A stretch of DNA of 64,000 bases from Cyanobacterium sp. HL-69 (GTDB taxonomy: Bacteria; Cyanobacteriota; Cyanobacteriia; Cyanobacteriales; Cyanobacteriaceae). How positions within the stretch are numbered: position 1 is the stretch's first letter; every line of letters starts with the position of its first letter. The notes under the pieces are model-generated. The model worked only from the letters and a program-made list of their open reading frames with translations, was not told the DNA's origin and did no database searches. The stretch lies in the NCBI GenBank assembly GCA_002813895.1, contig CP024912.1, positions 1,426,001 through 1,490,000 on the forward strand, in the 5' to 3' direction. This document shows, one piece after another, positions 5,438 through 8,856 of this stretch. Made by a program: the position numbers and the translations under genes.

Positions 5438-5509
5438 TGGGATGTCGCCAAGCGGTAAGGCAGCGGGTTTTGGTCTCGCCATTCCTAGGTTCGAATCCTA
5501 GCATCCCAG
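5438..5509 (+). tRNA. trnQ: tRNA-Gln(TTG)
   Basis: The 72-nt cloverleaf is complete. The acceptor stem is TGGGATG paired with CATCCCA, with discriminator G. The anticodon loop TTTTGGT carries TTG, which reads CAA/CAG. The T arm is CTAGG-TTCGAAT-CCTAG. CCA is not encoded. A strong promoter precedes it and an intrinsic terminator follows, so it is a stand-alone transcription unit. Confidence 0.97.
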
Positions 5510-7301: not shown

Positions 7302-8060
7302 ATGAGATTTTTAACGTATCGAATTAGTAAACACAAAAAACCCCTATTCATCTATCTACCAGGCATGGATGGCAGTGGCAAATTATTGGAAACTCAAAGG
7401 GATTTATTCCGAAATTTTGAGGTGCGTTGTCTCGATTTTACCCACGATAGGGCATCAAACTGGCAAGAGTTAATTAAGCCTTTAATGTTGTTATTGGAGA
7501 AGGAAGTTGATAAAAATAATTATCCCCAGATATATCTTTGCGGAGAGTCTTTTGGGGCTTGTATCGCTTTGAAGTTGATGGAGATGATTCCTGATTTTTT
7601 CGATAAAGTAATTCTGATTAATTCCGCATCTAGTTTTTATCGTCGTAGTTGGTTAAATGTTGGCACTTATATCACTTCTTTGATGCCTAATAATATTTAT
7701 AATGGCACTACTTTCATTTTGTTTCCTTTTTTGGTTAAAATAAATGCGATCGCACATTCTCAACGGGTAGCCCTTCTGAATACCCTCCAATCCATACATC
7801 CCCTCACGGTATCCAATCGCATCAAACTTCTTAATCAATTCCGTCTCAACCTGCACAAAATTAAACAGTTTTCCCAACCAGTATTAATCATCGCCTCAGA
7901 AGAAGATAATCTTTTGCCCTCCGTAGAAGAAGCCCAACGATTACAACAATTTTTTAGTCAAAGTTTTGTGAATATTTTGCCCTATAGTGGTCACTGTTGC
8001 CTATTAGAAAAAGAAATAAATTTACTTACAATTATGTATAAATACTCATTTCTGAATTGA
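7302..8060 (+). CDS. Alpha/beta hydrolase (phytyl-ester-synthase-like N-terminal type)
   Basis: This is an alpha/beta-fold hydrolase. It shows the oxyanion-hole segment IYLPGMDGSGKLL, the nucleophile elbow GESFG (Ser near residue 83), an acid candidate in ASEEDNLLPS near residue 200 and the catalytic His in YSGHCCLLE near residue 231. The LPGMDG motif is typical of the cyanobacterial and plastid group that includes the hydrolase part of phytyl ester synthases/acyltransferases; acyl-lipid chemistry is inference only. I use ATG 7302 because the upstream alternative is TTG 7254 and overlaps the preceding hairpin region. About 250 residues is usual. No membrane helix or signal peptide is seen. 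Confidence 0.85.
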   Translation: MRFLTYRISKHKKPLFIYLPGMDGSGKLLETQRDLFRNFEVRCLDFTHDRASNWQELIKPLMLLLEKEVDKNNYPQIYLCGESFGACIALKLMEMIPDFFDKVILINSASSFYRRSWLNVGTYITSLMPNNIYNGTTFILFPFLVKINAIAHSQRVALLNTLQSIHPLTVSNRIKLLNQFRLNLHKIKQFSQPVLIIASEEDNLLPSVEEAQRLQQFFSQSFVNILPYSGHCCLLEKEINLLTIMYKYSFLN

Positions 8061-8634
8061 TAAGAATAGATGTAAAGTTTTGTAAAAACCCATAGCATTG
8101 GAGGAAAAAGGTTGTTATATTATATATATAGAAGGAAAAAGATCCTTCTTCCGTTAGACTAAACAACGATAGAAACCCATTGAAAAAGTGAGGTAACTTA
8201 ACTGAATAAGATACGTTGTATTATCCGTCTTTCGAGTGCCGAAACAGCTTTTCGTTTTCTGTTTCATTTTTCCTAAAGTGCCACAACTGAGAGCAAGGGA
8301 ACTGGATCAATTAATAAATTGAATAGTAAATTGGTTTTCAGTGCAACTCTGTTAAATATCGATGTAGGTAAGGAAAATAATTAAATCAAAATAGTAAACA
8401 CAAGGAGGTTAAACAAGCTGTTAACGGTTAGTTTCATTCTCAAAGGTCAAAAAAAAGTAGCAGTGGTTATTACTTCCGCTCTGATTTCCTAAAATGTGCT
8501 GACTCAGGAAGCAAGGGAACTATTGATATATAATTTAATTATCTCAGTGGTGCAACTTCGAGTATTATCAACAACCATAGGAAGTGATTGAGTCAAGTAA
8601 AATTCGGACCACTGTTATTTTTTTGTATATTATT
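8061..8634 (+). promoter_or_regulatory. 574-bp non-coding leader with tandem structured motif (candidate regulatory RNA)
   Basis: This long gene-free region precedes a 73-codon gene. Two copies of one motif are visible. Copy 1 (about 8241-8365) has the hairpin GAAACAG / CTGTTTC (8241-8247 with 8259-8265), then TTTCCTAAAGTG-type sequence, GCAAGGGAACT at 8293 and CAGTGCAACTCTG at 8339. Copy 2 (about 8470-8580) has TTTCCTAAAATG at 8485, GCAAGGGAACT at 8511 and CAGTGGTGCAACTTCG at 8545. Order and spacing are conserved while the loops differ, as in tandem aptamers. The GGGAAC and GTGCAACT blocks faintly recall the ydaO (c-di-AMP) core, but I cannot assign the family. An AT-rich TATATTATATA at 8117-8127 could be a -10 region. 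Confidence 0.5.
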
Positions 8635-8856
8635 ATGATTAAAGTTTCTGGAAAAGTTGAATATCGAGCCATTGCCGTTGGTGCATGGGCTTTAGTTACA
8701 AAAGAGGGTAAAATCTACGAATTATATAACCCTCCCCAAGATTTGAAGCAGGATGGCATTACCATCGAAGTAGAAGGAGTCATTCGAGATGATGTGATGA
8801 CTATTTCTATGATAGGTAAAATACTTGAGGTGCGATCGTTTACCATTAAGTCTTAG
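8635..8856 (+). CDS. Small protein of unknown function, possibly OB-fold-like
   Basis: This 73-residue protein (MIKVSGKVEYRAIAVGAWAL...) is made of predicted short beta strands with a GxW-type turn (VGAWALVTKEGKIYELYN) and a C-terminal strand ISMIGKILEVRSF. This suggests a small beta-barrel, but the fold is inference. I use ATG 8635, where the homologous-looking MIKVSGKV begins; a GTG at 8584 in the same frame would add 17 residues unlike the rest. Its interest lies in the long structured leader upstream, which suggests control by a small molecule or RNA element. No biochemical function is proposed. Confidence 0.65.
   Translation: MIKVSGKVEYRAIAVGAWALVTKEGKIYELYNPPQDLKQDGITIEVEGVIRDDVMTISMIGKILEVRSFTIKS

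Follow-up and report, generated by a model that had tools for sequence, protein, structure and literature searches.

We found that the 574-base intergenic gap between an ORF ending at 8060 and the ATG at 8635, in a window of 64,000 nucleotides from Cyanobacterium sp. HL-69 (the window being the whole stretch of DNA that was analysed), contains at about 8130 to 8627 two units of one structured RNA. This conserved stretch is probably a fused tandem dimer of an undescribed cyanobacterial structured ncRNA, a reading in which we include the read-through, RpaB control and trans action proposed below. Comparison across genomes shows that the RNA element is conserved, base-paired, often multi-copy and built like an independent gene. 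The reading that fits best is that of an ncRNA in its own right; in the window's family, two fused units would precede a small conserved gene, in an actuaton-like arrangement.

The two copies share a series of sequence blocks. TTTCCTAAAGTG at 8269 in copy 1 and TTTCCTAAAATG at 8485 in copy 2 are accompanied by GCAAGGGAACT at 8293 and 8511 and by CAGTG...GCAACT at 8339 and 8545, one of each per copy. All of these blocks lie where a preliminary description of the leader, made from the letters of this DNA, had placed them, and the GAAACAG/CTGTTTC hairpin which it had noted in copy 1 was confirmed (8241 to 8247 with 8259 to 8265). The motif it had drawn at 8221 to 8580 was also found, but its extent was too narrow, as the conserved RNA covers about 8130 to 8627; a leader start near 8130, which it had suggested, agrees with the transcript start predicted here.

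Comparison with other loci shows that the normal unit is about 250 to 300 nt long and stands alone, in tandem arrays or fused into dimers. Its 5' part consists of an upstream block, GTAAAGTTTnnTTGCA, a -10-like TAAATT or TAATCT about 25 to 30 nt further on, and a 5' hairpin, GAAGC...GCTTC. Next comes a 5' domain, GGCAGAU...ACAGC...AAGAGGU...GCUGU...AUCUGUCUCGU, in which GCAGAU pairs with AUCUGU and ACAGC with GCUGU, and then a rod of four helices, P1 to P4, with the conserved internal loop GCAAUGCA / GUGCAA. The 3' end is moderately U-rich, with a mean T fraction of 0.36 over 20 nt. Features of the unit were counted over 75 loci, obtained by searching 80 sources, 79 of which matched (all but L153), and by removing 17 of the resulting 92 rows (4 duplicate loci, 9 further copies in the same locus, and 4 antisense matches). 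By a loose pattern, the upstream block is present in 63 of the 74 loci with enough DNA, at 73 to 93 nt before the model start in 59 of them, and 73 of the 75 units have a purine-rich SD-like stretch by a pattern also loose enough for chance to contribute; such motif counts are partly circular, since a 5'-domain pattern had served to fetch 44 of the loci from among the matches listed. The longest ORF inside any of these units encodes 45 aa.

The fused dimer in the window can be read against this plan. An HLR1-like box, that is, an RpaB-type direct repeat, lies at 8069 to 8086 (minus strand), about -60 to -43 from the predicted start, and agrees with 15 of 16 specified positions, a fit equalled by none of 200 shuffles. 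All the other parts are on the plus strand. A -10-like TATATT at 8116 to 8121, part of the putative RNA promoter, was assigned by eye, being aligned with the -10 conserved in other units, and the hairpin AGAAGGA/TCCTTCT at 8130 to 8149, a consensus fold with double changes at the predicted transcript start, resembles the GAAGC/GCTTC hairpin of other units. Unit 1 (8150 to 8371), delimited by model matches and alignments, comprises a 5' domain, where AGAC at 8156 to 8159 pairs by eye with GTCT at 8227 to 8230, and copy 1 of the module. The helices of copy 1 (8239 to 8427) are P1 (8239 to 8248 with 8417 to 8427, with one A-A in the window), P2 (8269 to 8274 with 8371 to 8376), P3 (8290 to 8293 with 8347 to 8350) and P4 (8301 to 8304 with 8339 to 8342). 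Unit 2 (8372 to 8627) contains the helices of copy 2 (8455 to 8620), namely P1 (8455 to 8468 with 8607 to 8620), P2 (8484 to 8491 with 8578 to 8585), P3 (8508 to 8511 with 8556 to 8559) and P4 (8519 to 8522 with 8548 to 8551).

Unit 1 seems to keep its promoter, 5' hairpin and 5' domain while its own P1 3' strand is apparently absent, and the partner strand of its P1 would be GCUGUU of the 5' domain of unit 2, as judged partly by eye. Such a unit 1 would result if a deletion had joined two neighbouring units of an array. Tight, overlapping pairs of matches are also found in L082, L086 and L102 (genus g56, family f2). The local hairpin of copy 1 (8241 to 8265) competes with P1, and in the source genome its duplex is calculated at -8.5 kcal/mol versus -11.8 kcal/mol for P1; it is weaker than P1 in 12 of the 14 family loci and stronger in two high-GC loci. 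A switch between the local hairpin and P1 is possible in copy 1, because the 5' strand of P1 can also form the hairpin.

Covariation supports the base pairing. The first alignment, A5, contains copy 2 from 14 family sequences with 30 pairs, and a covariance model, R1, was built from copy 2 alone. Changes on both sides were seen in 12 pairs and 35 cells, and 96.2% of cells were paired, values not reached in any of 500 shuffles; further pair types are no more numerous than usual (139 of 500 shuffles reach their number). Covariation in copy 1 is weaker, with double changes in 7 of 27 pairs (4 of 500 shuffles) and 14 cells (0 of 500), 92.2% of cells paired (1 of 500), and further pair types not above shuffles (490 of 500). 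That the leader holds two tandem copies, as had been proposed, was borne out by R1, which recovers copy 1 in 14 of 14 family loci at E values of 2.6e-9 to 0.012. This recovery is clear in 11 of the loci (E <= 7.9e-7) and not in L013, L006 and L014, since R1 matches its own antisense at E values down to 1.1e-5. When applied to 386 genomes of the phylum, R1 gave full-length matches in many other families, e.g. in L071 at E 3.2e-24; the matches L104 and L107 to L110 were dropped as coding, CRISPR or unrelated sequence by eye. The second alignment, A7, contains 22 sequences, none from the window's family, and 38 pairs, with the structure drawn from the same sequences. Here 89.8% of cells are paired, 23 of the 38 pairs and 70 cells show double changes, and 59 further pair types occur; none of the 500 shuffles equals any of these values, and slid controls give 40 to 47% paired. 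P1 is conspicuous, with double changes in 10 of 12 pairs, and P4 is the weakest, with 66.9% of cells paired.

R2, the covariance model built from A7, matches unit 2 of the window over its full length (model positions 1 to 234 of 234, E 4.3e-19) and, in unit 1, the core (E 0.0026). At E <= 1e-5 it has matches in 163 of the 195 sampled genomes of the window's order, which represent 84 of 94 sampled genera, with 1 to 10 matches per positive genome and one or two in 126 of the 163. There is no R2 match in the other 32 of the 195 genomes, six of which belong to family f13. At E <= 1e-3, R2 matches 109 of 386 genomes of the phylum, eight of which were discounted as probable chance matches (families f47 and f56, best E 5.2e-6). 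Carriers among the matches listed include Nostoc, Desmonostoc, Microcoleus, Oscillatoria, Crocosphaera, Laspinema, Spirulina, Hormoscilla and Prochloron. Homologues outside the source genome and covariation, to which the preliminary description had looked for support, were both found, the former as R1 and R2 matches and the latter in A5 and A7. R2 also weakly matches the antisense of its own loci L261, L267, L295, L297, L298 and L299 (E 5.9e-7 to 6.2e-5), a sign of the self-complementarity of the long rod which calls for caution with weak matches. Carriage by viruses was considered and rejected, as none of 17 pattern matches in viral contigs had a model match at E <= 1.

As given in excerpts of PMC9241938, HLR1 is a direct repeat of (G/T)TTACA(T/A)(T/A), 2 nt apart, and a position at -45 to -60 is compatible with activation. 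The HLR1-like repeat fits 14 to 16 of 16 positions in 13 of the 14 family loci, with scores reached by 5 to 10 of 200 shuffles in L005, L006 and L008, and 12 of 16 positions in L014, where 65 of 200 shuffles are as good. Outside the window's family, the upstream block fits HLR1 in part, by eye mostly with one good half-site. A sigma-70 consensus promoter for the RNA was rejected, as a consensus scan finds none at that place, and we infer the -10 from conservation only. At the other end, no plus-strand terminator-like site was found near 8620 in a scan limited to loops of 3 to 8, and an intrinsic terminator made of P1 and a U-run is not supported, as the pairing of P1 extends into the U-rich stretch and the U-richness is moderate.

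The gene downstream of the dimer (8635 to 8856, plus strand) encodes a 73-aa protein which is DUF5818-like but falls below the Pfam cut-off (17.6 versus 27 bits). Among the 15 genomes of the window's family that were searched, one, which is 67% complete, has no match to the gene, and in all 14 gene-bearing genomes, the source genome included, the leader is conserved upstream of it. Twelve of these leaders were found by DNA similarity and two high-GC ones by profile. When aligned (12, then 14), they are conserved from the promoter-like stretch onwards, for about 500 nt, until shortly before the ATG at 8635. Relatives of the 73-aa protein are present in 185 of the 195 genomes of the window's order. 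By R2 search, no such RNA lies beside the same gene in 19 loci of other families (L046 to L064; 0 of 19). An early reading of the RNA as a family-specific leader only was overturned by RNA matches elsewhere in many of those other families. At L056 (68 to 1498), a DUF5818-like relative lies directly 3' of a subtilase gene (Peptidase_S8 and DUF5942), and several other loci appear alike by eye.

In the 75-locus set, 53 loci have the next ORF of at least 80 codons on the same strand and 19 have it on the opposite strand; in 3 it falls outside the available DNA. The same-strand genes are unrelated to each other, including those for VWA proteins, GAF histidine kinases, a class II tRNA synthetase, which carries an editing domain and looks like ProS, and a protein of about 256 aa. 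The last family (proteins starting MSIIALRAWYL; e.g. L073 589 to 1356, reverse strand) is next in 28 of the 75 loci and has no Pfam match at E <= 0.01. At L290 (2240 to 5659), ten sense matches, one of them a fragment, follow each other in a single genome, mostly about 336 nt apart, and inspection by eye of 1.85 kb of the array, which is partly masked as N, shows units with a box of their own. The unrelated neighbours, the opposite-strand ORFs and the arrayed units with their own box are the grounds on which we read the RNA in general as a gene of its own. A cis role is possible in some lineages, given the 53 of 75 loci with a same-strand next ORF and the 28 in which one gene family follows.

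The RNA could also be an independent ncRNA that is without effect on the gene downstream, their linkage being an inherited neighbourhood. We consider this somewhat unlikely, even though units elsewhere do without a same-strand next gene and a TATAAT-like stretch lies between the RNA and the ATG in three family loci (L011, L012 and L015). The RNA and the gene stay linked in 14 of 14 family loci, with an upstream neighbour common to 9 and a downstream neighbour common to 2 of them; the pair was thus kept while neighbours changed in several family lineages, which argues against mere inheritance of the neighbourhood.

Much less probable is a two-aptamer riboswitch or a protein-binding autoregulatory leader, in which binding would stabilise P1 of copy 2 and block translation. 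The linkage in all gene-bearing family genomes, the covariation of P1, and the position of its 3' strand, P1', which in the window stops 14 nt short of the ATG, would suit such a leader. However, P1' and the ATG are about 33 to 110 bases further apart in L011, L012 and L015 than in the window, and the same gene does without the RNA in the loci of other families described above. The two-aptamer riboswitch of the preliminary description is not supported, as there is no Rfam riboswitch match, and relatives, which resemble complete transcription units with a conserved promoter-like block, lie beside unrelated genes, with an opposite-strand next ORF in 19 of 75 loci. A riboswitch of a known class was likewise rejected, there being no aptamer match in Rfam and no consistent cis position before related genes across lineages. 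It is highly improbable that the unit is a mobile or repetitive element which spreads as DNA and whose hairpins are relics of transposition: up to 10 matches in a genome, tandem arrays and transposase-like ORFs seen by eye beside L093, L112 and L119 would fit, but most positive genomes have only one or two matches, and the unit shows full-length conservation, compensatory changes across many families and a conserved promoter-like block.

Under the preferred reading of a fused dimer of an ncRNA, transcription would start from the conserved promoter-like block, and in the window's family one promoter would drive both units. The small downstream gene would be made by read-through, as in the actuatons of Synechocystis, and the HLR1-like box, a predicted site, may place the RNA under light or redox control via RpaB. 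Least certain is our guess that the RNA acts in trans via its conserved unpaired loops, with the dose set by copy number. We give about even chances to the broader proposal that this is a major new class of cyanobacterial ncRNA, found in most members of an order in 1 to 10 copies, controlled by light or redox, and acting in trans, perhaps on ribosomes (through a purine-rich GAGGU loop) or on a protein (through the paired internal loops), with dose raised via arrays and dimers. A structured RNA in 84 of 94 sampled genera of a well-studied bacterial order, without a match in Rfam 15, suggests an undescribed core part of cyanobacterial RNA biology. Because the RNA varies in copy number and forms arrays and fused dimers, deletion in laboratory strains could test its function, and the window adds a case in which an RNA unit has been joined to a second copy of itself ahead of a small conserved gene.

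At the gathering score, Rfam 15 has no match on the RNA in the window or in 20 relatives; a tRNA at 5438 to 5509 is the sole match at that score in the window. With permissive thresholds, the window stretch and five loci yielded nothing but weak matches, well under the gathering scores, and the sole one inside a canonical unit (L112, on the same strand as the minus-strand match of the unit) scores 22.5 versus 60 bits. A faint likeness to the ydaO (RF00379) or cobalamin (RF00174) riboswitch had been suggested earlier; both are absent at the gathering score and among matches up to E 10. 6S RNA is a long irregular rod with large internal loops that stands alone, and the new RNA is like it in all these respects. 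It was rejected as a relative, as RF00013 matches elsewhere in 18 of 18 genomes tested, in 17 of them above the cut-off. Searches of the open-access literature gave us no recognised description of the RNA; a bare transcript name may exist in subscription papers, supplements or transcript tables.

According to excerpts of PMC2662882 and PMC5386190, the Yfr2 family is also a multi-copy cyanobacterial ncRNA that is sometimes joined to genes. Its members in Synechocystis are 65 to 80 nt long (PMC5386190, in part), whereas the RNA described here has about 250 to 300 nt. The term actuaton is used for Synechocystis by Kopf et al. for an sRNA cassette which drives the next gene by read-through, as set out in the same excerpts of PMC5386190. 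None of the Synechocystis actuaton entries in these excerpts has a neighbour found here, and this RNA may differ from the actuaton sRNAs named there (Yfr2b, Yfr2c, Ncr0700 and others). The window's family shows the actuaton-like order, with the RNA upstream of a same-strand gene, along with a conserved promoter-like block from which the transcript start was predicted. Like the actuatons outlined in that source, the RNA would be an sRNA-type cassette with its own, here predicted, promoter, placed before changing genes.
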